Shown one piece after another: positions 34,685 to 45,995 of a stretch of DNA of 64,000 nt. This DNA is from Massilia polaris (GTDB lineage: Bacteria > Pseudomonadota > Gammaproteobacteria > Burkholderiales > Burkholderiaceae_D). Below the pieces are notes generated by a model. That model searched no databases. It worked only from the letters and a program-made list of their open reading frames with translations, and was not told where the DNA came from. The DNA lies in contig NZ_JABBGG010000001.1 of the NCBI RefSeq assembly GCF_012927275.1, forward strand, positions 682,001-746,000. The letters are read 5' to 3'. How positions within the stretch are numbered: position 1 is the stretch's first letter; each line of letters starts with the position of its first letter. A program made the position numbers and the translations under genes.

Positions 34685-35257
34685 TTAAGGAAGAGTCGCG
34701 CTCGTGTCAAGCATTCCCTTGCCCGACTGGCTGCTTCCTTCCTCGATGCGCAACACCGGGTAGGGATTGATCGCGCCGCCCGCTTCGTAGATTCCGTAGT
34801 GCAGGTGCGGCGGCGTTCCCGCGGCATTGCCCGTATTGCCGACGTAGCCAATCACGGTGCCCGTCCTGACCCGCAAGCCGCGCGCCACGTCCGCAAAGCG
34901 GTCCAGGTGGGCATAGTAATGGCGCTGGCCGCCCGGGCCGAGCACCCAGACGACTTGCCCGCCCAGCCGGTTGTTTCCGACCCGCATTACGATGCCTTCG
35001 GTCGCCGAGTGCACCGGCGTACCGCGCGGCGCGAAAATGTCGATGCCTTCGTGCTTGCGCCCGCCGCTTCGTGCGGCTTGCCAGGTGTCCGTGAGTTTCT
35101 TCGGCGTGACGCCCCGCACTGGCACGCTGACGGAGTCCGGCGCCGGCATCGAGGCCAGCCGGATCGCGTAAATGGCGTCGTCGACGTAAGGACCGACCAG
35201 CGCATACGCCACCACCAGCAACACACCCAACAGCAGGATTCGGACGATGGCACGCAT
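34685..35257 (-). CDS. M23 family metallopeptidase (LytM-like)
   Basis: A 190-residue membrane-anchored murein hydrolase-type protein. The N-terminal helix MRAIVRILLLGVLLVVAYALVG is followed by a short linker and the M23 domain. Zinc ligands are visible in HEGIDIF (H-x3-D) and PHLHYGIY (HxH), with the helper histidine in HYYAHLDRF, so the active site looks complete. It starts 11 bp after the EamA gene and likely shares its transcript. The upstream frame is longer, but the membrane helix marks the start at 35257. Confidence 0.88.
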   Translation of the reverse strand: MRAIVRILLLGVLLVVAYALVGPYVDDAIYAIRLASMPAPDSVSVPVRGVTPKKLTDTWQAARSGGRKHEGIDIFAPRGTPVHSATEGIVMRVGNNRLGGQVVWVLGPGGQRHYYAHLDRFADVARGLRVRTGTVIGYVGNTGNAAGTPPHLHYGIYEAGGAINPYPVLRIEEGSSQSGKGMLDTSATLP

Positions 35258-35268
35258 GGCTTGAATTT

Positions 35269-36129
35269 TCAGTTCCTGATCCGGGCCGACCAGGCGCTGG
35301 TGGCCGACGCCAGCACGATGCAGGCGATCGCGATCCATTGGCTTGCTGTCAGCATCTCACCGAGGATGAGGAACCCGGCCAAGGCGCTGACCGCCGGCGC
35401 CGCGCTGCTCAGCATGCCGAACAGGCCCTGCGACAAGCCACGCAGGGCGATCACCTCCAGCGTGTACGGAATGGCGCTGGACAGTACCGCGATGGCAATG
35501 CCGGTCAGCACAATGGCAGGGGCGAGCATGGCGGCGCCGGAGCAGGCGATGCCAAGCGGTACGGTGAACAAGGAAGCGACCAGCATGCCCCACGCGACCC
35601 CCTGGCCGCCCCGCAACGCCGACGCGCGCTTGCCGAACACGATATACAGCGCCCAGCACAGCGCCGCGCCAAACGCATACGCGATGCCGGCGGGATCGAG
35701 CTGCCCGGGGCCGCCGTCGAATGGCAGCAGCAGGTAGAGTCCGAAGATGGCCAGCGCGCAGGAAGCGAAGTCGCGCGGCCGGCGCGACGACAGCAACGCC
35801 ACGCTCAGCGGCCCGGTGACTTCGATCGCCACCGCGATGCCTATCGGGATACGGTCGAACGCGCGGTAGATCAGCAGGTTCATCATGCCCAGCACCGTGC
35901 CGTAGATCAGCAGGTTGACGGCGTCGCGTTTGGTGATCGGCGAACGCCAGGGACGGAATATCGCCAGCAGCAACAGTGCGGAAAAGCCGACGCGGAACGC
36001 GGTGATGCCTTCGACGCCGATCAGCGGGAACAGATTCTTGGCGATCGCGGCGCCGAGATTGACGGAGATCTGGCCGCCGAATAGTGCGAGGGACGGCAGC
36101 AACACGCCGTCACGGTCTGATTGAAGCAA
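35269..36129 (-). CDS. EamA family exporter, RhtA-like
   Basis: A 286-residue inner-membrane protein with ten helices in two EamA repeats. The first half contains GITAFRVGFSALLLL, the link IPIGIAVAIEVTGPLSVALL is characteristic of RhtA (threonine/homoserine efflux), and the second half contains IPYTLEVIALRGLSQGLFGMLSS and LSALAGFLILGE-type motifs. The role is probably amino-acid or metabolite efflux. It is followed by the M23 peptidase gene. Confidence 0.85.
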   Translation of the reverse strand: MLQSDRDGVLLPSLALFGGQISVNLGAAIAKNLFPLIGVEGITAFRVGFSALLLLAIFRPWRSPITKRDAVNLLIYGTVLGMMNLLIYRAFDRIPIGIAVAIEVTGPLSVALLSSRRPRDFASCALAIFGLYLLLPFDGGPGQLDPAGIAYAFGAALCWALYIVFGKRASALRGGQGVAWGMLVASLFTVPLGIACSGAAMLAPAIVLTGIAIAVLSSAIPYTLEVIALRGLSQGLFGMLSSAAPAVSALAGFLILGEMLTASQWIAIACIVLASATSAWSARIRN

Positions 36130-36189
36130 GGGGAAGTGCTTTCTGGAGATTGTTTGGGAACAGCTTCTGCAGAAACATTATAAGTGACG

Positions 36190-37104
36190 CTACCCTTGTC
36201 GCCAGACGATGCGGTTGCGCCCGGCCTGCTTGGCCTGGTACAGGTGCGCATCGGCCGCTTCGAACATGGCGGAGGCGGTTTCAGAGCCGTGTTCGTGGAG
36301 GGTGGCGCCGCCAACGCTGACCGTCAGCACCGGGGCCACCGTCGACGCGGCGTGCTCGATCATCAGCTGCGCGATCTCGCTGCAGATCGCGCAGACCACT
36401 TGCTGCGCCTGCGCGGCGTCGGTGTCCGGCATCAGCAGCACCAGTTCTTCACCGCCGTAACGCGCGGCCAGGTCGGCCGGCCTGCGCATGCCGTTGCTGG
36501 CGGTGCGCGCGACGGCCCTTAATGCGCGGTCGCCGGCGGGGTGGCCGTAATGATCGTTGTACAGCTTGAAGCCGTCGATATCGAGCAGGGCCAGCGACAG
36601 CGGACGCTTGCTGCGCGAAGCGCGCAGCCATTCCGCTTCGTACACTTCATCGAAACGGCGGCGGTTGGCCAGTTCGGTCAGGCCGTCGACGTGCGCCAGT
36701 CTTTCCAGCATGCGCCGCTGGCGCACCACTTGCAGGTGCAGCGCGACACGCGCCATGACGACGGTCGCATTGAACGGCTTGGCGATGTAGTCGGCCACGC
36801 CCATGCGCAGGCCGTTCGCCTCGTCTTCGGGGCGGTCGAGTCCCGAAATGAAGATGACCGCAATGTGCGCCGTCTGCGGGTCGGCGCGCAGCTGGCGCAG
36901 CGTTTCGTAGCCGTCCATGTCGGGCATCATGAGGTCGAGCAGGATCAGGTCGGGCGCATGGCGCGCGGCGCGTTCGAGCGTCTGGGCGCCGTTTTTGGCG
37001 AGGATGACCGTGTATTCCGGCTTGAGCAGTTCGCCGAGCACCATCCGGTTGATCGCGTCGTCGTCGGCAACCAGGACCTTCTGCATGTCGTCGAAGCTCA
37101 TCAA
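36190..37104 (-). CDS. Response regulator with GGDEF output (diguanylate cyclase)
   Basis: A 304-residue PleD-like protein. The receiver domain (about 8-125) has the acidic pair ADDD, phosphoacceptor LLDLMMPDMDG and KPF lysine. The GGDEF domain has an active-type RYGGEELVLLMP, and an RxxD inhibitory site (RPAD) five residues before it. It therefore makes cyclic di-GMP when phosphorylated and is subject to product inhibition. Its ATG overlaps the stop of the hybrid kinase by four bases, so it is the natural output of that kinase. Confidence 0.94.
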   Translation of the reverse strand: MMSFDDMQKVLVADDDAINRMVLGELLKPEYTVILAKNGAQTLERAARHAPDLILLDLMMPDMDGYETLRQLRADPQTAHIAVIFISGLDRPEDEANGLRMGVADYIAKPFNATVVMARVALHLQVVRQRRMLERLAHVDGLTELANRRRFDEVYEAEWLRASRSKRPLSLALLDIDGFKLYNDHYGHPAGDRALRAVARTASNGMRRPADLAARYGGEELVLLMPDTDAAQAQQVVCAICSEIAQLMIEHAASTVAPVLTVSVGGATLHEHGSETASAMFEAADAHLYQAKQAGRNRIVWRQG

Positions 37105-40100
37105 GCGTTTTCTTTCAAGTCCATGTCGAGCGCCTGCGCCAGTTCGGCCAGCGGGACCAGTGCCGCATGATATTCGATGTCGTCGACCGCGCGCTGGACC
37201 GCCGCCAGCACGCCAGCGTGGCGCGAGCCGGCGAGCAGGGTTTGAAGCTCGTGCAGCGCGTCCTCGGCGCGCGCGTCTTCCGATTTCAGCAAATTCTCGA
37301 GGCGATCGACCAGCCTGCGGCCGTCCGCCGCGGCGTAGCGGCTCGCGACCACCGGCGCTTCAATTTGTCCGAGGCCGCCAAGCACCGTTTCGAGGCTCTC
37401 CCTCAGTTCTGTCACCAGCGCGTCGATGCGTTCGAATCGTCCGGCGCGCAGTTCCAGTTCGACCGTGTTGGCCAGCGCGGACAATCCCGACGCGCCAAGG
37501 TAGAACGCGCTCGACTTCAGGTTGTGCGTCAGGCTTTCGATGGCGCCGTAATGCGTGCCCGCCAGCGCATCGCGCAAGGTGGGCGGCGCGTCCCGGTACT
37601 CCAGCAGGAAGCCGCGGATGCGCTTGTGCAGGCGGCTGTGCTGGCCGTCGACATTGGCAAGCGCCTGCCGCCAGTCCACGCCGCTGATGGCAGGCAGCGC
37701 GGCGGCATCATCCTGGGCCGCGCCGGGAATCGACGGCGGCGGCAGCTGGCGGCCGGCCAGGCGCGCGGGATCGATCCAATTGAGCAGTGTGCGGAACAGC
37801 AGCGCCGGGTCGATCGGCTTGGTGACATGGTCGTTCATCCCCGCATCCAGGCTCTTCTCGCGGTCGCCCGCCATGGCGTGCGCCGTCATCGCGACGATCG
37901 GCACGTGCTGCAGGCGCTTGATGGCGCGGATGCGGCGCGCTGCCGTCAGCCCGTCCACTTCCTGCATCTGGATGTCCATCAGGACCAGGTCGTAATCGGC
38001 TTCCTGCGCCATCTGCACGGCTTCGCCGCCGTGGACGGCGACGTCGACCTGCATGCGCGCCGAGGCCAGGAAGTCCAGCGCCACCTCGCGGTTGTTGGCA
38101 TTGTCTTCCACCAGCAGGATGCGCGCGCCATCGAGGCGCGCCAGGTCCGGCAGCTGGATACCTGGCGCATTGTGCTGCGCCAGCTCGCCTGCGTCGCGCT
38201 GCGGTACCGCAAGTTCCGGATGCAGCACCTGGAAAAGGCTGTGATAGAGCAGGGCGGGGCCGACCGGTTTGGTGAGGAAGGCGTGCAGCGGAACGTCGCC
38301 CTCGTTCTGCAATACAGTCTCGCGCGACGAGGCGCTGACCATCAGGATGGCCGGCGGTGCGGGGAAGCGCACATCCGCATGGATACGGCGGATGGTTTCG
38401 ACGCCGTCCCATCCCGGCATCATGTAATCCATCAGCACGACCTGGTACGGCTCGCCCGTATCGACCGCGCGCGCCAGCATCGCCAGCGACTGCTCGCCGG
38501 AGCTGGCGGCGTGCGCGGTGACGCCGAAGGACGCCAGCATTTCGACCAGCGCGTCGCGCGACGTGGCGCTGTCGTCCACCACCATCACGCGGGCCTGGTG
38601 CAGCGCCGCTGCCGATAGCGTAACGGCGGCGGCATCAGGGTCGCCGATCCCGAGTTGCACCGTGAACGTGAAGCGGCTGCCGGCGCCGGGCGTGCTGGTC
38701 GCTTCGATGGCGCCGCCCAGCAGCTCGACCAGCTGCTTCGAGATGCTCAGGCCGAGGCCAGTGCCGCCGTAGCGGCGCGTGATCGAGTTGTCGGCCTGGT
38801 TGAACGACTGGAACAGCTGCGCCAGCTGCTCCTTGTTCATGCCGATGCCGGTGTCGGTGACGCTGAAGCGCAGCGTGAGCGCGCCGCCGCAGCGTTCGAC
38901 CGTGTCGACCGCCACCACGATCTCGCCATGCTCGGTGAACTTGACCGCGTTGCTGGTCAGGTTGATCAGCACCTGGCCGATGCGCAGCGGGTCGCCTACC
39001 AGCCGGGTTGGCACGCCGCGCTCCACGCGGAACACCAGTTCGACCGGCTTCGCGCCAGCCTTGATGGCGGTCACGCCGGACAGGTGCTCCAGCATTTCGT
39101 CGAGATCGAACGGCACCGCTTCCAGCTTCAGCTTGCCCGCCTCGATCTTGGAGAAGTCGAGGATGTCGTTCAGGACGCCGAGCAGGTGCTCGCCCGATCC
39201 GAGGATCTTGCTCAGGTAGTTGCGCAGTTTCGGCTGCGGGTCCGCCATCAGCGACAACCGGCTCATGCCGATGATCGCGTTGAGCGGCGTGCGGATTTCA
39301 TGGCTCATGTTGGCGAGGAAGTCGGACTTCATGCGGGTGGCGGCTTCGGCGCGCAGCATCGCATCCTGCATCTGCCTGGTGCGCAGGGCAAGGATCCGCA
39401 TGAACACCAGCATGTCGAACAGGTTTCCGAACTGGAGGGCGTGCATGGTCCAGAAGTTGGCCGGGACCGCGCCGTTGATGACCTGGCTGAGGATCACCGA
39501 TGATGCGAAGGCGACCGCCCACCCGGCCAGGAAGTAGGTGCCGACGGCATCGCCGCTTCGCGCGCGCTTGAATGCACCGGGAAGGCCGAGCAGCATCGGC
39601 ATCAGGCCGAGCGTGCTGACGATGGCGACCAGGGTCTCGACGCTGATCACGTCGAGCGCATAGGCAAGCGCGCTCACGACGCACAGCACTGCACCGGTCT
39701 TCATCAGGCGGCTGAACAGGCGGTCGGTGCCCGGACGGGCCAGCGCCTGTTCGACGAACAGGTAGGCGCCGCAGGAGGCCATCAGCGCAAACAAGCCGCC
39801 CGCGTGCAAGTTCATCCACGCGTTTTCCTTCCAGATGTACTGGCTGCCCAGGCCGAAGAATTCGACCGAGAACATCGTGGTGCCGCCGATCAGCAATGCG
39901 TACTTGCCGAATAGCGGCTCGCGCAGGTTGATCCACTGCGCCACGCTATACAGCAGCAGGCAGACGCTCAGGCCAATCAGCAACCCTTGCAACATCTGCT
40001 CGTTGAGCGCATCGGCGTGGAACGGGCCCGGTTTGGACAGGCGGATCGGCAGGATCATCGAACCCACGTTCTCGATGCGCAGCAGGATCAGTTGCTGCTG

Positions 40101-40547
40101 GCCGGGCTTGAGCGGCAGCAGGACAGCAGGCGCGCGCCCGCCGCGTGCGTTCGCTTGCACCGGCTGCAGGTTGCCGAGCGCCGGGTGGCGCTTCACCTGG
40201 CCATCGGTGACGACGAACACGTCGACCCGGTTGATGACGGCGTAGTCGATGTCGAGGATCCAGTCGGCGCCGCTTGTAGCCGACAGCGCAATGGGGATGC
40301 GCAACCAGACAACGTCCTTGTGCACGCCGAGCGTGGCATACGCGGAAGTGGGCGCCGCGAATTTCGCCGCGGCCGCGAGTGCCTCTTCGGCGCGCAGCGT
40401 GCCGCCAGGGTCGCTCAGCACCGTTACCGCCGGCCATGCGTCTACCCGCCCGAGGCGGTCTTCCAGTACCAGCGGGCCGGGCGCCGCCAGCGACAGGCCT
40501 GGTATCAGCACCAGCAGGAGGAGCGCAAGGCGCAGCAGCGTCAGCAT
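37101..40547 (-). CDS. Hybrid histidine kinase with 7TMR-DISM sensor, two receivers and HPt
   Basis: The protein has about 1148 residues: signal peptide (MLTLLRLALLLLVLIPGLSLAAP), periplasmic DISMED2-like ligand domain (about 25-180), seven membrane helices of the 7TMR-DISM type (about 185-390), HisKA with phospho-His 416 (NMSHEIRTPLN), HATPase, receiver 1 with Asp 707 (LMDYMMPGWDG), receiver 2 with Asp 858 (LMDIQMQEVDG), and HPt with His 1008 (THNLKSSAFYLGA). It is a complete His-Asp-His phosphorelay, ending in the adjoining GGDEF response regulator. The frame is open 130 codons further upstream, but that part is antisense-like, and the signal peptide fixes the start. It overlaps the DUF2236 gene by seven bases. 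Confidence 0.93.
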   Translation of the reverse strand: MLTLLRLALLLLVLIPGLSLAAPGPLVLEDRLGRVDAWPAVTVLSDPGGTLRAEEALAAAAKFAAPTSAYATLGVHKDVVWLRIPIALSATSGADWILDIDYAVINRVDVFVVTDGQVKRHPALGNLQPVQANARGGRAPAVLLPLKPGQQQLILLRIENVGSMILPIRLSKPGPFHADALNEQMLQGLLIGLSVCLLLYSVAQWINLREPLFGKYALLIGGTTMFSVEFFGLGSQYIWKENAWMNLHAGGLFALMASCGAYLFVEQALARPGTDRLFSRLMKTGAVLCVVSALAYALDVISVETLVAIVSTLGLMPMLLGLPGAFKRARSGDAVGTYFLAGWAVAFASSVILSQVINGAVPANFWTMHALQFGNLFDMLVFMRILALRTRQMQDAMLRAEAATRMKSDFLANMSHEIRTPLNAIIGMSRLSLMADPQPKLRNYLSKILGSGEHLLGVLNDILDFSKIEAGKLKLEAVPFDLDEMLEHLSGVTAIKAGAKPVELVFRVERGVPTRLVGDPLRIGQVLINLTSNAVKFTEHGEIVVAVDTVERCGGALTLRFSVTDTGIGMNKEQLAQLFQSFNQADNSITRRYGGTGLGLSISKQLVELLGGAIEATSTPGAGSRFTFTVQLGIGDPDAAAVTLSAAALHQARVMVVDDSATSRDALVEMLASFGVTAHAASSGEQSLAMLARAVDTGEPYQVVLMDYMMPGWDGVETIRRIHADVRFPAPPAILMVSASSRETVLQNEGDVPLHAFLTKPVGPALLYHSLFQVLHPELAVPQRDAGELAQHNAPGIQLPDLARLDGARILLVEDNANNREVALDFLASARMQVDVAVHGGEAVQMAQEADYDLVLMDIQMQEVDGLTAARRIRAIKRLQHVPIVAMTAHAMAGDREKSLDAGMNDHVTKPIDPALLFRTLLNWIDPARLAGRQLPPPSIPGAAQDDAAALPAISGVDWRQALANVDGQHSRLHKRIRGFLLEYRDAPPTLRDALAGTHYGAIESLTHNLKSSAFYLGASGLSALANTVELELRAGRFERIDALVTELRESLETVLGGLGQIEAPVVASRYAAADGRRLVDRLENLLKSEDARAEDALHELQTLLAGSRHAGVLAAVQRAVDDIEYHAALVPLAELAQALDMDLKENA

Positions 40548-41881
40548 TTGATCGGTCCGGGTGAAGGGTTTTGTTTGCGGCGGCCGGTCAGCCGCCGTTC
40601 CAGCGCGTTCATCCAGCCTGGCGCGCTGGGATCCGCCTGCCAGGTCTCGAGCACGCTTCCGACCTGGTTCAGCAGCGCGGCCGGCAGCTTGAGGGGGCGC
40701 GTCTGGTCCATCAGCACCTTTGCGGCGAAGCGGTGGCCGGCTATCCGGGTCACCAGGCGCGCGATCGAAAACTGCGGCAGCGCCAGGCGTACGACGCTGT
40801 CGATCACGCGGACCGCGCCCATTGTCACAGCAAACAGCGCGCTTGACGGCCACGAGACCCGCGCTGTGAGGGCCAGCGCCTGCGCGGCATCGGGCCCGCA
40901 CAGGAAGCGCGTCATCAGCACCGGGAAGGGTTTGCAAAGCGCCAGCGGAATCTCGTTCTCCATCGTTTGCATCAGCGCTGCGCCGAGCGCGGGGCGCGGG
41001 TCGGGCAGGAACGATGCACCGCGGGCGCGCGCCTGGATGGCGCCAAACATGGCCTCGGCCTCCGCCATCGTCTCGGGCATCAGCGCGCGCTCGATCCCGA
41101 TCAGGTGGCCGAGGACGTTCCAGGTGTGCAGGTAGGCCTCTTCGTCGGCCTCGGGGAGACCGATGCCGAGCCGGCGCAAGCCGCGCAGGAACACATAGCC
41201 GAAGGTGAGCAGTGTATAAGCCAGTTCATCCTGGTTGCAGGGCAGGCCGTTGCGCCCGACGTCCCAGCCATTCGCCAGCAAGGTGTGGTGCAGGCCCTCC
41301 CCTTGCGGAGGCTGCGGCGTAACCACTGCGTAGTCGCGGGCGGCGGCGGGGTCGCCGCGAAGCATCAGGTGGCGGATCGTGGCGTGGATCAGGCGCACCT
41401 TGATCGCCTGTGCGACGCCGCCGCCGGCGCCAAGCAGGCCGCCGTGCATCATCACCGGGAAGACCATCGCGGCAGTGGAGCGGATGCGGTAATCGGTGTG
41501 CTGCTCCAGCTGCCCGGCGGCGTGCAGGACGCCGGCCAGTTCGGGGACCACATAGCATTCGGGCAGGCTGGCGCAGAACAGCAGGGTGCACGACGTCATG
41601 CTCATGTCCATGAACAGCGTTTCGGCGCGCGCTATCTTCGCATCGTCGGCCCAGCCAGGCAATTTCAGTGCGGCGCTGACGTAGTCTTCCAGCGCGGCGG
41701 CAATCGGGGCAGCGACATCCGGCCCGGCCTTCCAGTCCGCCAGCGCGCCGTTGGACTGCCACTGCGCGAGCTGGCGGTTGACGATGGCGAGGATGTCAAT
41801 TGGCGCCTCGGTAGCGGGGCCGAGGATGCGGGCGATGGTGTCGTCAGCCAGCGGATCGGCGCGCAGGCTGGCGGGCTTCAT
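40541..41881 (-). CDS. DUF2236 / MpaB-Lcp-type haem oxygenase-like protein
   Basis: A 446-residue all-helical protein of the DUF2236 family, which includes the rubber oxygenase Lcp and fungal MpaB. Family-typical stretches are RIRSTAAMVFPVM, followed by a helix VRLIHATIRHLMLRGD whose histidine is the likely axial haem ligand. A second conserved block is QDELAYTLLTFGYVFLRGLRRLG. AGGTGA precedes ATG 41881, which overlaps the cruF-like stop (ATGA). Lcp cleaves polyisoprene double bonds; many relatives have no known substrate. I see no signal peptide, so it is probably cytoplasmic or membrane-associated. The pairing with a carotenoid-type hydratase and a TonB receptor points to an isoprenoid substrate. 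Confidence 0.8.
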   Translation of the reverse strand: MKPASLRADPLADDTIARILGPATEAPIDILAIVNRQLAQWQSNGALADWKAGPDVAAPIAAALEDYVSAALKLPGWADDAKIARAETLFMDMSMTSCTLLFCASLPECYVVPELAGVLHAAGQLEQHTDYRIRSTAAMVFPVMMHGGLLGAGGGVAQAIKVRLIHATIRHLMLRGDPAAARDYAVVTPQPPQGEGLHHTLLANGWDVGRNGLPCNQDELAYTLLTFGYVFLRGLRRLGIGLPEADEEAYLHTWNVLGHLIGIERALMPETMAEAEAMFGAIQARARGASFLPDPRPALGAALMQTMENEIPLALCKPFPVLMTRFLCGPDAAQALALTARVSWPSSALFAVTMGAVRVIDSVVRLALPQFSIARLVTRIAGHRFAAKVLMDQTRPLKLPAALLNQVGSVLETWQADPSAPGWMNALERRLTGRRKQNPSPGPIKC

Positions 41882-42684
41882 GCGCTCACCTGCGATGCCG
41901 GCGCCTGCCAGCGCACGAAGCCGCACAGCGCCGCCAGCAGGGGAATTCCCATCGCGAACAGCGCGATCGTGCGCGTCTCGACCGGGTAGCCCTCGACCAT
42001 TTGGAACAGCATGCTGCCGCCGTAAATGGCCAGAGGAACCAGCGCATGGCGGCGCGCCACCGGCCGCGCCGCCAGCGGAGCGCGTCCGCGCAGGCTGAGG
42101 CGGAAGGCGAGCACGATGACAAAGGATACGAACGCCCAGCCGGCGAATCCCTGCACGGTTTCGCCGAACCACCAGCCGTCGGTCTCGGTCATGATCCACG
42201 CCTTCAGCTTGTAGACCATGTACGGGTCGGCGCCGAGGTCGTAGGCAGTGACGACCATCGCGGCCAGCAGCGACATCGCAATCGCCTGCATGAGCGGGGC
42301 GGCGCCGTCGGAGGGCGCCTGCCAGACCATCAGGTTGCTGATGATGTAGGCAACGTAGCACAGCGCGAACCACATCAGCGGGATCACTGCCGGGACGTCG
42401 CCCAGTCGCGGTCCCAGCACATCGGTGTACGTGTAGCTGCCGAAAAACCAGCCGTAGGACGAACCCAGCTGCTCGGCGATCCAGCCGGCCGCCACGCCGA
42501 TCACGACGAAGCGGAGCGCGGCGCGGGCGCCCAGCAGGTGGATCGCGCTCGCCCAGCAGCATGCGAACATCAGCACCGAACTGGCGATCAGCAGTTGCGT
42601 CGTCTCGGCCTGGCCTCGCATCAGCATCGCAGCGAGGAAGGCAAGCAGGAGGGCGATCGTAATGCGGGGCAGGTGATTTGTCAT
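41878..42684 (-). CDS. Carotenoid biosynthesis protein, CruF-like (DUF422)
   Basis: A 268-residue integral membrane protein with about seven helices. DUF422/CruF motifs are present: AGWIAEQLGSSYGWFFGSYTYTD, GDVPAVIPLMWF, TAYDLGADPYMVYKLKAW, and TDGWWFGETVQGFAGW. CruF adds water across the end-group double bond of acyclic carotenoids. No phytoene synthase or desaturase gene is near, so this member may act on an imported isoprenoid. It follows the TonB receptor by 17 bp and overlaps the DUF2236 gene by four bases. Confidence 0.85.
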   Translation of the reverse strand: MTNHLPRITIALLLAFLAAMLMRGQAETTQLLIASSVLMFACCWASAIHLLGARAALRFVVIGVAAGWIAEQLGSSYGWFFGSYTYTDVLGPRLGDVPAVIPLMWFALCYVAYIISNLMVWQAPSDGAAPLMQAIAMSLLAAMVVTAYDLGADPYMVYKLKAWIMTETDGWWFGETVQGFAGWAFVSFVIVLAFRLSLRGRAPLAARPVARRHALVPLAIYGGSMLFQMVEGYPVETRTIALFAMGIPLLAALCGFVRWQAPASQVSA

Positions 42685-42701
42685 GAGGGCAGGCTATGTG
42701 A

Positions 42702-44957
42702 TCAGAAGCGGTAATCCAGGCGAACATCCATCGTGCGCGGATCGCTCGGCACCAGCATGCCGAAGCTGTCGATGGCGATCGGCGCGATCTTGTCGCCGAT
42801 GTTCTTCACCAGCGCGTGAAGGCTCCAGCGCGCGCCATCGGGACGGTAGCCGAGGCTTGCATCGGCGGTGGTGCGGGATGGGATCGGGTATTGCAGCAGC
42901 TGGCTTGGGACGCCGATCGTGTATGAACTGCTCGAGCGCGCGGCGACGCCGGCCTTCAGCTGGCCGCCCGCGGCACGGAAGCGGTGCTGGTAGCCCAGCG
43001 TGACGACGGTGCGTGGCGCGCGGTCAAGCTTGTTGCCGGCCCACGAATGCACGCCGTCGGGCGTGTACGACACGTAGTGGGCGTCGAGCAGGGCGAGCGT
43101 GTAGTTAAAGCTGCCGGCTGCTGTCGCGTTGACCACGCCTTCGACCTCAAGTCCCTTGACGCTGGCCGATCCGGCATTGGCCGTCACATAGCGCGGCGCG
43201 CCCTGGACGATCGCCACGCCCGACAGCTGCAGGTTGGTGTAGTCGTAGTCGAAGGCCGTGACGTTCAGGCTCGCGCGATTGCGCCAGAAACGGGTCTTGA
43301 TGCCAGCCTCGTAGGAGCGCAGCTGCTCCGGCTGGTACAACAGCGTATTCGCGGGCACCGCCGCCGCGGCCGGGCAGCCGATGCCGACGCCGCTGCTGCC
43401 CGCCAGGCAGCCGTCGTTGAAGCCGCCCGCCTTGTAACCGGTCGAGACGGCGCCGTACACGAAGGTCGCGGGAGCGAGGTCGTAGTCGGCGCCGAGGCGC
43501 CAGGTGGTCTTGTGCGTGTCCAGCGACGCCGCATTGAGCAGCCTGAAGTCGGTGGCGGGATTGAACGCCTGCGCTTGCTGGAAGTTGGTCGAACCGACGC
43601 GCGACTTGTCGTCTTTGGTGTGGCGCGCGCCAGCCGTGACGCGCAGCTGCGGCGACATGCTGTAGGTCGCCTGGCCAAAGGCGGCGCGGCTGCGCGCGAC
43701 GGTCGGGCCGTGCGGGAATACGTAGTACGGCGGCAGGCCGACCAGTTCGAGGTCGTGGAAGCCGTACACCACGCTGGACTCTTCGCGGAAGTAGTACAGC
43801 CCGGCCTGGGCGCTGAGCGGCCCGCTGCCGTTGGTGGCGATCCTCAGTTCATGCGAATCCTGTTCGTAGTCGCCGCTGAAATCCTGGCGCACGCCAAGCG
43901 CAAACGCCGGTGCCACGCGGTAGTAGAAATTGGCCAGCGCGCCGTGCTCGTAATTGCGGTGCGCGCCGAGGTAGGACAGGGTGGCCGCGCCCAGGTTCCA
44001 GGCCAGCTCGGCGCCAGTGCCCGAAGTGGTCTTGTCGCTGTAGCCCTGCGCCGGCACCGTATTCGGCGGCACGAAGGCGTTGGTCAGGCGCTGCCCGGTG
44101 CTGGCGCCGTACCATTGAGGGCTGCCGCTGGCGACGCCGGTGTAGAAGTTGGTATCCGGGACGATGCTGTCGTTGTTGTCGTGGACCGTGCTGCGGTCGT
44201 GGCGCAGCAGCAGCGATGCCGACCTGCCGATGGCCAGTTTGGCCGACAGGCGCGCCGAGCGGTCGTCGCGGTCAAGCCCGAGCGTGTGCGGCGTCCCTTG
44301 CGCATTGACCAGGTAGCTGTCGTGCTTGTTGTAGGCAACCGCGGCGCGCACGGCAAGCGCGTCGCTGACCGGAACGTTGAGCATCGCGCTGGCTTTGCGG
44401 CTGCCGAAATTACCCGCCCCAACGCTGGCCGCCGCTTCCCGCTTCCGGACCGGCGCGTTCGAGATGACGTTGACCACGCCGGCGGTGGCATTGCGGCCGT
44501 ACAGAGTGCCTTGCGGCCCGCGCAATACCTCGACGCGGGCGAGGTCATGGAAGCTGAGGTTCTGGTTCTGGGGGCGGGCGATGTAAATCCCGTCGAGCAT
44601 GAAAGCCGCCGACGGGTCGCCTTTTTCCGTGGTATCGGCGTTCGACACGCCGCGGATTGTGATCTTCAGTCCATCGGCGGCGCCATCGAGGTGCACGTTA
44701 GGCAGCCGCGCGGACAGGTCGGATGGGCGGTCAATGCCGGCATCGTGCAGCCGCTCGCCGGACATCACGCTCATCGCGACAGGCGTGCGCGACTCGTTCG
44801 ACACGGTGCGTTGCGCGGTGACGACAATTTCCGCGATTTCGGCCTCGCTGCCGGACTGGCGTGGCGCCGCCACCTGGGCGTTAGCCGCGGTCCAGACGAT
44901 ACCCGAAATCGAAACGGCCAAAAGTGTAGGGCTCAGTCGAACCCGGCGAATAGACAT
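42702..44957 (-). CDS. TonB-dependent outer-membrane receptor
   Basis: A 751-residue receptor. The signal peptide (LLAVSISGIVWTAANAQ) precedes a TonB-box-like EIAEIVVTAQR. The plug domain contains GLKITIRGVSNADTTEKGDPS and LARVEVLRGPQGTLYGRNATAGVVNVIS. A 22-strand barrel follows and ends in MDVRLDYRF, with a terminal aromatic residue. GGGGAG stands before ATG 44957, and an ATG eight codons earlier lacks a site. The type is the one common in sphingomonads for hydrophobic or aromatic compounds rather than classical siderophore receptors. It is the first gene of the five-gene operon reaching 36190. Confidence 0.92.
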   Translation of the reverse strand: MSIRRVRLSPTLLAVSISGIVWTAANAQVAAPRQSGSEAEIAEIVVTAQRTVSNESRTPVAMSVMSGERLHDAGIDRPSDLSARLPNVHLDGAADGLKITIRGVSNADTTEKGDPSAAFMLDGIYIARPQNQNLSFHDLARVEVLRGPQGTLYGRNATAGVVNVISNAPVRKREAAASVGAGNFGSRKASAMLNVPVSDALAVRAAVAYNKHDSYLVNAQGTPHTLGLDRDDRSARLSAKLAIGRSASLLLRHDRSTVHDNNDSIVPDTNFYTGVASGSPQWYGASTGQRLTNAFVPPNTVPAQGYSDKTTSGTGAELAWNLGAATLSYLGAHRNYEHGALANFYYRVAPAFALGVRQDFSGDYEQDSHELRIATNGSGPLSAQAGLYYFREESSVVYGFHDLELVGLPPYYVFPHGPTVARSRAAFGQATYSMSPQLRVTAGARHTKDDKSRVGSTNFQQAQAFNPATDFRLLNAASLDTHKTTWRLGADYDLAPATFVYGAVSTGYKAGGFNDGCLAGSSGVGIGCPAAAAVPANTLLYQPEQLRSYEAGIKTRFWRNRASLNVTAFDYDYTNLQLSGVAIVQGAPRYVTANAGSASVKGLEVEGVVNATAAGSFNYTLALLDAHYVSYTPDGVHSWAGNKLDRAPRTVVTLGYQHRFRAAGGQLKAGVAARSSSSYTIGVPSQLLQYPIPSRTTADASLGYRPDGARWSLHALVKNIGDKIAPIAIDSFGMLVPSDPRTMDVRLDYRF

Positions 44958-45216
44958 TGCAGCGCTCCCCAGCCTTGTCACGGCGCCGGCGATCGGCCGG
45001 TACCCCTCCCACCGTCCATGTTTTTCACATTTGTATACGGTAGGAATGAAAATTAGGAGTCTAGCAGTTAGTGTCGCGAGGAAATAGCCCCCGAACCAAC
45101 AATGTGAAAATAACTACAAGCAATAGATACAGTTGCAATTGCTTTTTTGTCTACCTTGCGCCGGCCCAAGCCCATCTGCGGTCAGAATAGCGAGGAACAT
45201 TCACTGCGGAGAAACC

Positions 45217-45995
45217 ATGCTGATCGCCACTTTCAACGTCAACGGCATCACCAGCCGGCTGCCTGCCTTGCTGCAATGGCTGGAGGAGAAACAGCCGGAC
45301 GTCGCCTGCCTGCAGGAACTGAAGGCGCCACAGCAGAAATTCCCGGAGCGGCGTTGAAAGAGCTGGGCTACCAGGCGCTCTGGCACGGGCAGAAAAGCTG
45401 GAACGGCGTGGCCATCCTGACGAAGGACGCGCCGGCCCAGGAAATAGGGCGCGGCCTGCCGGGCGATCCGAACGACGAGCAAAGCCGCTATATCGAGGCG
45501 GCCGTCAACGGCGTGCTGATCTGCTGCCTCTACCTGCCGAACGGGAACCCGGCGCCGGGGCCGAAGTTCGACTACAAGCTGCAGTGGTTCGAACGGCTGA
45601 TCATCCGCGCGGCCGAACTGATGGAGAGCGGCGCGCCGGTGGTGCTGGCGGGCGACTTCAACGTGATGCCGACCGAGCTCGATGTCTACAAGCCCGAGCG
45701 CTGGGTCAACGACGCGCTGTTCCGGCCGGAGACGCGGGAGGCCTTCCACCGGCTGGTCGCGCAAGGCTGGTGCGACGCGTTGCGCGCGATGCATCCGGAT
45801 GAACGGATCTATACCTTCTGGGACTACTTCCGCGATGCCTACGGACGCGATGCCGGCCTGCGCATCGACCACCTGCTGCTCAGTCCTGCGCTTGCCGGAT
45901 CCCTGACGGCGGCGGGCGTGGACCGCGAGGTGCGCGGCCGCGGAAAGCCGAGCGACCACGCGCCCACGTGGATCAGGCTGGACCTTGGCCGGTAG
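45217..45995 (+). pseudogene. xthA: Exonuclease III gene with a one-base frameshift
   Basis: The gene starts at ATG 45217 behind GGAGA and reads MLIATFNVNGITSRLPALLQW...CLQELKAPQQKFPE. At about 45345-45352 the frame breaks and stops at 45357. Restoring one G after CCGGAG gives AALKELGYQALWHG and a clean frame to 45995, about 259 residues in all. All catalytic parts exist across the two frames: CLQELK (metal Glu), GDFNVMP (Asp/Asn), LRIDHLLLS and SDHAPTW (His). Either the base was lost in the strain or it is a sequencing error. The rest shows no decay, which favours a very recent event or an error. The 3' end overlaps aroP by 23 bases, convergent. Confidence 0.88.

Follow-up and report, generated by a model that had tools for sequence, protein, structure and literature searches.

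Five genes on the minus strand occupy positions 36190 to 44957 of the window, that is, of the whole 64,000-nucleotide stretch of Massilia polaris DNA that was analysed. Starting from the TonB receptor gene, they are as follows.

42702..44957, minus strand: TonB-dependent outer-membrane receptor (Pfam PF07715, Plug, and PF00593, barrel)
41878..42684, minus strand: CruF-like integral membrane protein (PF04240, E 2.7e-29)
40541..41881, minus strand: DUF2236 (MPAB_Lcp_cat) protein with a predicted haem-oxygenase fold (PF09995, E 5.3e-16)
37101..40547, minus strand: 7TMR-DISM hybrid histidine kinase (Pfam: DISMED2, 7TM, HisKA, HATPase_c, two receivers and Hpt)
36190..37104, minus strand: receiver-GGDEF (REC-GGDEF) diguanylate cyclase (Pfam: receiver and GGDEF)

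The position, strand and spacing of the genes given in the earlier note were confirmed by the coordinates and by Pfam. In the order listed, a gap of 17 bases is followed by overlaps of 4, 7 and 4, the last of which holds if the TTG at 37104, rather than the alternative ATG at 37101, is the start of the REC-GGDEF gene. This spacing suggests a single transcript. A simple scan of 35900-45300 returned no minus-strand terminator-like site and one minus-strand promoter-like match (42684-42656), such sites being no commoner there than in shuffled sequence. The source genome has a single match to PF09995 and a single match to PF04240.

The DUF2236 protein scored 59.8 bits against the PF09995 gathering cut-off of 23. 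Its model (pLDDT 84) was matched by Foldseek to LcpK30 (5o1l) with an E-value of 9.4e-11 at 19% identity, and under E 0.1 the only PDB matches were Lcp and, weakly, t-anethole oxygenase (E 0.063). Lcp is a rubber oxygenase acting on C=C compounds (PMC5522427); the Pseudomonas t-anethole oxygenase, which also acts on a C=C compound, is called a flavoprotein (PMC3774712). R132, T136 and H166 align with the Lcp haem residues Arg164, Thr168 and His198 (PMC6311187), and are conserved in 92/92, 91/92 and 92/92 DUF2236 sequences, a set that is partly non-independent because the same genomes repeat (for example L040/L077, L167/L128, L169/L140, L053/L087 and L056/L089). The prediction that the haem ligands would be kept was therefore borne out. 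The protein resembles Lcp (a haem b protein of the DUF2236 family, PDB 5o1l/5o1m) in its fold and its Arg/Thr/His residues. Unlike Lcp, these 92 sequences have Ser (62), Ala (24), Gln (4), Met (1) or Thr (1) at the position of the distal Lys167, no signal peptide was seen by eye at the N-terminus, and Cys103 (92/92) and Cys109 (90/92) are conserved. The members form a subfamily of their own, at least 41% identical to the window protein. Rubber degradation is not favoured, since the distal Lys is missing and no secretion signal was seen.

The CruF-like protein lies above the PF04240 gathering cut-off (103.1 vs 25 bits) but misses the cut-off of each of the three NCBIfam CruF models that it matched (70.3 vs 154.7, 69.5 vs 400 and 48.3 vs 300 bits). 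Its model has eight long helices (pLDDT 86), and the fold search gave no PDB match under E 0.001, the best hit, at E 0.27, being an Insig homologue from a mycobacterium. Like the CruF carotenoid hydratases it belongs to PF04240, and its E71 and D149 are common to the three outside members compared, one of which sits in a Deinococcus carotenoid cluster. Unlike the hydratases it is paired or fused with DUF2236, and it carries GETxxG in place of GxPxxN, a motif observed in this analysis (it is not a published criterion) in 3/3 outside members, only three having been compared. At this site G174, E175, T176 and G179 were found in 23/23 CruF-like sequences, and E175 with T176 in 64/64. A carotenoid cluster was rejected on the CruF cut-offs and on the squalene/phytoene-synthase-family (PF00494) genes, which do not discriminate: at least two matches were present in each of 55 genomes (26 carriers, 8 with the sensor but without the enzymes, and 21 others). 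The remark in the earlier note that no carotenoid synthesis gene is nearby thus says little, as these matches occur with or without the module. A defence role for the two enzymes was likewise set aside, as PADLOC matched neither protein.

In the TonB receptor, Pfam detected the Plug, the barrel and a sub-threshold YadA match, with no N-terminal signalling domain. The match to a siderophore-receptor model was below its cut-off (123 vs 223.5), and the window held no Fur-box-like site with up to three mismatches, a strict test in which none was expected by chance. The receptor may nevertheless serve iron uptake, as its nearest PDB relatives are iron-type receptors. As in FecA-type surface signalling, a TonB receptor is genetically tied to a regulator. 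FecA-type receptors carry an STN domain and their genes adjoin FecI/FecR; the module receptor differs in having no such signalling domain, and Pfam found neither sigma nor anti-sigma factor among the five genes.

The kinase matched DISMED2 (PF07696, E 1.7e-23) and the 7TM domain (PF07695, E 5.2e-26), and a motif check found the phosphorelay motifs. The same check located GGEEL at 217 and an RxxD I-site at 208 in the REC-GGDEF protein, for which cyclase activity is predicted. In combining a DISM sensor with a hybrid kinase the protein resembles Pseudomonas RetS and SagS, the match to the RetS sensor being insignificant (E 0.2-0.3). We know of no lipid enzymes or TonB receptor beside RetS or SagS, and to our knowledge the ligands of most 7TMR-DISM receptors are not known. 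Glucose-6-phosphate is the cue for SagS, which affects c-di-GMP (PMC8544897). For DISMED2 domains, carbohydrate sensing is predicted (PMC8846402), which counts against a lipid ligand.

Comparison of loci showed that relatives keep the gene order, as had been expected. Orthologues of the kinase's sensor half form a group with a sharp boundary, represented in 35 of 245 genomes of the family. Close orthologues of DUF2236 (27 genomes), of the CruF-like protein (24) and of the TonB receptor (30, at E <= 1e-150) all fell within these 35, with Fisher p-values of 2e-18 to 1e-33, uncorrected for kinship. The CruF-like gene was never seen without DUF2236 (24/24). Candidates scored per genome were the four best in the TonB search and at most six or seven in the others. 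A remote DUF2236 gene (G074, E 5e-8) was excluded from the 27; G231 (48% complete, with broken frames) was counted as TonB-less although fragments are present, and was left out of the tree.

Similarity to DUF2236 was the only criterion used to collect 80 loci; in 73 of them the sensor lay at most 1.2 kb downstream (tblastn), and three, all Hydrogenophaga, had a more distant 7TMR-DISM-GGDEF neighbour, assigned by Pfam (L119) or by cluster (L124, L136). A DISM neighbour was not seen in the other four (L129, L137, L138 and L140, for the last only 3.8 kb downstream). As a control, remote DUF2236 genes of the order had neither the sensor nor the CruF-like gene in any of six stretches; in one of these controls (L179), the opposite strand carried a kinase and a REC-GGDEF gene (36%) no more than 4 kb away. 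Close DUF2236 orthologues outside the family were accompanied by the sensor in 6/9 loci and had no DISM neighbour in 3/9. The CruF-like gene is not core, being absent from 9/9 outside-family loci and from 3/27 family carriers. Neither do enzymes and sensor strictly need each other, because 8 of the 35 sensor genomes are enzyme-less and the 4/80 and 3/9 DUF2236 loci above have no DISM neighbour.

The module varies in its architecture. CruF-like and DUF2236 proteins share one open frame in 8/80 loci, and no DUF2236-sensor fusion was present in the ORFs examined. In Undibacterium, Acidovorax and Hydrogenophaga the two enzymes can be fused, a DISM sensor and GGDEF are directly linked, and the TonB receptor was not found; Acidovorax, Undibacterium and others keep the enzymes with one to three sensors. 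Of the 41 loci without TonB, 34 encode sensor and GGDEF as a single ORF that lacks a kinase core, while the kinase form is present in 39/39 TonB loci. Judged by gene content and order, the five genes form a conserved module in Burkholderiales. The sensor half, being the part common to its variants, marks a specific 7TMR-DISM group as the common element, with which DUF2236, usually together with the CruF-like gene, travels. In Oxalobacteraceae a TonB receptor is added. The output is a GGDEF domain, which belongs to the sensor protein itself or is connected to it by an apparent phosphorelay of kinase, receivers, HPt and REC-GGDEF.

Seven of the enzyme-less genomes retain TonB receptor, sensor and GGDEF. 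On the sensor tree, for which eight outgroup loci were picked from the DUF2236 loci and the tandem kinase copy L043 was labelled enzyme-bearing after its genome, presence or absence of the enzymes requires six changes. The enzyme-less label is barely clustered, 39 of 500 shuffles needing as few changes. Each change may have been a loss or a gain, and the missing stretches are visible between collinear relatives. Three enzyme-less species form a clade in which dN/dS is 0.16-0.34 for receptor, sensor and GGDEF (6/6 values); purifying selection still acts on receptor and sensor there. It is as if the species that keep receptor and sensor but lack the enzymes were listening without making the message.

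The linkage of the genes is observed; for the ligand, its chemistry and the direction of the signal we infer the following. The account toward which we lean, tentatively and at somewhat less than an even chance, is a signalling module: the two enzymes would produce or modify a hydrophobic ligand, the TonB receptor could import it, and the DISM receptor would read it to set c-di-GMP, a signal for switching lifestyle. On the cytoplasmic face DUF2236 would carry out oxidative cleavage of a C=C bond in a molecule that is hydrophobic and probably isoprenoid. Within the membrane the CruF-like protein, whose conserved acids would lie close to the periplasmic side, would hydrate or otherwise alter a double bond. 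The product would be the ligand of the neighbouring DISM receptor, or its precursor, and the ligand-bound receptor would raise c-di-GMP. The TonB receptor would import the same compound from outside, so that a cell may produce this compound, perceive it, or do both. Since the enzymes have no signal peptide and TonB and DISMED2 act outside the cytoplasm, the product would have to pass through the membrane. Enzyme loss would be equally expected if the enzymes destroyed the ligand, which counts against their being its makers.

The earlier note had proposed that the operon takes up or senses an external isoprenoid, modifies it and reports it to c-di-GMP. Co-occurrence, gene fusion and repeated loss or gain give good support to a tie between a c-di-GMP sensor and both the enzymes and the TonB receptor; an external origin is conjectural, and the isoprenoid nature is suggested solely by distantly related families (LcpK30, 19% identical). 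The order of take up, modify and report is possible but not the sole one, because the enzyme pair occurs where the TonB receptor was not found, and receptor and sensor occur without the enzymes; make, release and listen fits at least as well.

Uptake and breakdown is an unlikely explanation, and is close to the view of the earlier note. On this account TonB would bring in an alkene from the environment, such as a terpenoid, for degradation by DUF2236 and the CruF-like protein, and the DISM sensor would signal the presence of the parent compound, making the cell settle at its food. The TonB receptor in 30/35 sensor genomes and the C=C substrates of the only PDB matches to the DUF2236 model favour this account, but no fixed catabolic partner was found (beyond the module genes, no protein cluster occurs in more than 8/39 TonB-bearing loci), the receptor was not found in 12/12 genomes of the TonB-less lineages, and the enzyme-less species that keep TonB and sensor would be sensing food that these enzymes cannot open. 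Somewhat less likely is signal quenching, by which the enzyme pair would inactivate the ligand and tune or reset the sensor, enzyme loss giving a more sensitive receiver. Retention of receptor and sensor through repeated changes in enzyme gene presence fits this idea, but Acidovorax, Undibacterium and others, with enzymes and sensors and no TonB receptor, would need another source of ligand. A non-enzymatic DUF2236 haem sensor reporting O2, NO or redox state to DISM, with the CruF-like protein as its membrane anchor, agrees with the invariant haem residues, with a site that Ser/Ala/Gln in 90/92 sequences could leave open and with the fusions to a membrane protein, but is very improbable given CruF-like acids shared with a carotenoid-cluster member beyond an anchor's need, no place for TonB uptake and no fusion of DUF2236 to the sensor.

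A ligand-making signalling module would have a parallel in the Rpf/DSF circuit, which comprises the crotonase synthase RpfF, the hybrid kinase RpfC and the c-di-GMP response regulator RpfG with an HD-GYP output. The two would be alike in encoding together an enzyme for a hydrophobic signal, a hybrid kinase of the membrane that includes receiver and HPt domains, and a c-di-GMP response regulator. Enzymes, sensor and output are nevertheless built from unrelated proteins, the module differing in having DUF2236 and CruF-like proteins, a DISM sensor, GGDEF (synthesis) rather than HD-GYP (breakdown), and a TonB receptor; Pfam found no crotonase or HD-GYP domain in the five genes. BDSF with RpfR is a related known signalling system (PMC8846402).

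No description of this module was found in the literature searched, a search mostly outside subscription papers and so no proof of absence. Nothing found there joined 7TMR-DISM with a TonB-dependent receptor, or any two of DUF2236, carotenoid biosynthesis protein and TonB, and the literature matches listed included none for DUF2236 with c-di-GMP or with Burkholderiales genera. Apart from the biology of rubber and carotenoids, we know of little assigned role for either DUF2236 or CruF-like proteins. More doubtful than the signalling module as such is an intercellular lipid signal of Burkholderiales, probably a terpenoid, that DUF2236 and CruF-like proteins would make, TonB would capture from neighbours and DISM would pass to c-di-GMP, several Oxalobacteraceae having repeatedly lost the makers to live as listeners. 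The module places next to a receptor two enzymes that are candidates for making its ligand, and the natural enzyme-less strains are ready biosensors with which the question becomes testable.

The earlier note placed five genes at 36190-44957 with gaps of 17, -4, -7 and -4 bases. Their place and gaps were confirmed, all on the reverse strand, and Pfam agreed with each identity.

44957-42702, reverse strand: TonB-dependent receptor, with Plug and barrel domains only, plus a YadA match below the cut-off
42684-41878, reverse strand: CruF-like protein (PF04240)
41881-40541, reverse strand: DUF2236 protein (PF09995, predicted Lcp-type haem fold)
40547-37101, reverse strand: DISM hybrid kinase with DISMED2, 7TM, HisKA, HATPase_c, two receivers and Hpt
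37104-36190, reverse strand: REC-GGDEF protein, last of the five

PF09995 and PF04240 each have a single match in the window genome. The motif check found the expected phosphorelay motifs in the kinase and, in the last protein, GGEEL and an RxxD I-site. A literature search, with subscription papers mostly outside its reach, found no published description of the module. Sixty bases downstream on the same strand (34685-36129) lie genes for an EamA-type exporter (RhtA-like, under its cut-off) and a putative M23 peptidase, kept there in only the two closest relatives among 27 fetched stretches.

The closest structural match to the model of the DUF2236 protein (pLDDT 84) is LcpK30, at E 9.4e-11; t-anethole oxygenase follows as a weak match (E 0.063), and no other structure falls below E 0.1. 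In a profile alignment, R132, T136 and H166 fall on Lcp R164, T168 and H198, described as haem residues in PMC5522427 and PMC6311187. The Lcp-type reading of the earlier note thus held for the haem residues: R132 and H166 are kept in 92/92 sequences and T136 in 91/92, the lone exception being the divergent L058. In contrast, Lcp's Lys167 is replaced by Ser, Ala or Gln in 90/92.

The CruF-like protein was modeled with eight long helices (pLDDT 86). Loop charges favor both ends in the cytoplasm, so E71, D149 and D153 would lie near the periplasmic helix ends. E71 and D149 are shared with 3/3 outside PF04240 members, one from a Deinococcus carotenoid cluster, but GxPxxN of those members is GETxxG here; the chemistry may therefore be related, while the substrate is probably different. 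The model (window 41878-42684) also bears a weak structural likeness to 4xu6, a mycobacterial homologue of Insig (E 0.27, probability 0.96).

DUF2236 matches occur in 28 of 245 genomes of the family, or 27 including the window genome once the remote G074 is left out. Among the 27 stretches taken from relatives (L033-L059) is the remote one, which has none of the other module genes. Conservation of gene order, set beforehand as a test, was borne out: 17/27 stretches show exactly TonB, CruF-like, DUF2236, DISM kinase and REC-GGDEF. The CruF-like gene follows DUF2236 in two and is missing in three; another three have fused genes without TonB, and one is a broken copy from a 48%-complete genome.

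With the sensor half of the kinase alone as query, 35 of the 245 genomes scored at least 364 bits against 116 bits for the next best, which marks this sensor as a separate orthologue group (109 genomes with weaker DISM matches included). CruF-like was found in 24 genomes and TonB, at E 1e-150 or better, in 30. The 35 sensor genomes comprise 20 with all four genes, 7 with TonB and sensor only, 4 with DUF2236, CruF-like and sensor (including G231, whose TonB is merely fragmented), 3 with DUF2236, TonB and sensor, and 1 with the sensor only. Outside them, the 245 genomes held no close orthologue of DUF2236, CruF-like or TonB. Fisher p for co-occurrence with the sensor is 2e-18 to 1e-33, shared ancestry being ignored.

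Both enzymes are missing from 8 sensor genomes, and TonB directly precedes the kinase in 7 of these. On the sensor tree (46 rows) enzyme presence requires 6 changes, each forced by well-supported branches; 39/500 shuffles of the labels needed as few, and we infer whether each change was loss or gain. G126 and G214 are collinear with flanks 93-95% identical, G126 being without the DUF2236 stretch and, separately, the CruF-like stretch. G133, compared with G210 (flanks ~80% identical), is missing one ~2.3 kb stretch spanning both enzyme genes. No enzyme remnants were found in the 8 stretches by tblastn at E 0.01. Receptor, sensor and GGDEF are intact there, without stops, and dN/dS is 0.03-0.49 (8 pairs, 23 of 24 gene comparisons possible, G079 having no TonB). 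In a clade of three enzyme-less species all 6 values are 0.16-0.34. The hearing parts are thus still under purifying selection where the making or modifying parts are gone. In three enzyme-less species (L197-L199) the kinase is shortened, and the window core aligns in two overlapping pieces, which suggests loss of one receiver.

Contigs of 84,980 species were scanned with a profile; of the 142 loci found, the best 80 were taken, chosen on DUF2236 alone. Among these best 80, the DISM sensor lies ≤1.2 kb downstream of DUF2236 in 73 (tblastn). TonB is upstream in 39, all with the kinase form, and no non-module protein cluster recurs in >8 of those 39. Of the 41 TonB-less loci, 34 carry one to three copies of an ORF that joins sensor to GGDEF and has no kinase core. 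Of the remaining 7, L119 has a 7TMR-DISM-GGDEF neighbor by Pfam, L124 and L136 have a member of the same protein cluster, and no DISM neighbor was found in L129, L137, L138 or L140. In 12 whole genomes from the TonB-less lineages, including two from Undibacterium, the TonB query that matches 30 family genomes had no match at E 1e-60, in a search itself without positive control.

Across the order (399 genomes), a close DUF2236 orthologue is present in 14 genomes and a remote one in 6; 398 genomes across the phylum gave 3 close orthologues, all of the order, and 8 remote. Nine close orthologues outside the family have the sensor in 6/9 and CruF-like in 0/9, and the 6 remote loci of the order have neither (although at L179 the opposite strand carries REC-GGDEF and a kinase no more than 4 kb away, and L176-L178 have other kinases nearby). 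The link is therefore a property of this DUF2236 subfamily. The module core is DUF2236, DISM sensor and GGDEF; CruF-like often accompanies it, and TonB is added in one lineage.

A CruF-like match adjoins DUF2236 in 64 of the best 80 loci (just 50 residues in L123), and the two share one open frame in 8 (L084, L087, L089, L091, L105, L119, L124 and L136). The same fusions occur, fully translated, in Undibacterium-type genomes of the family. Fusion, and the absence from family genomes of CruF-like without DUF2236, argue that the two enzymes work together. The combinations of receptor with sensor and of enzymes with sensor indicate that the sensor reads something that either TonB, from outside, or the enzymes can supply. 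Most simply, both routes would supply one and the same ligand. Alternatively, the enzymes may break down a compound imported by TonB, or they may quench a signal. An internal isoprenoid source is likely, since squalene-type genes were present in 55/55 genomes tested, although this proves nothing. The layout is alike in logic to Rpf/DSF circuits but has no enzyme, sensor or output domain in common with them.

Some loci carry further genes. An alpha/beta hydrolase cluster (Pfam on one member), possibly an ester-cleaving third enzyme, lies near CruF-like in 17 loci, 16 named Acidovorax and one MAG; in one of them, L103 (8161-8982), the gene is just upstream of CruF-like in the same direction. A berberine-bridge-type FAD oxidase cluster is downstream of the DISM-GGDEF genes in L106 (15260-16756) and 17 similar Acidovorax-type loci. 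L043, L082, L086 and L097 have the DISM kinase in tandem downstream of DUF2236, with or without GGDEF between copies; in L097 a CruF-like remnant of 56 residues lies between them. The two closest relatives, L033 (13081-14157) and L034 (4763-5833), have just upstream of TonB a second kinase-like gene, absent at that place from the window ORF list, with ~30% identity to the window kinase core.
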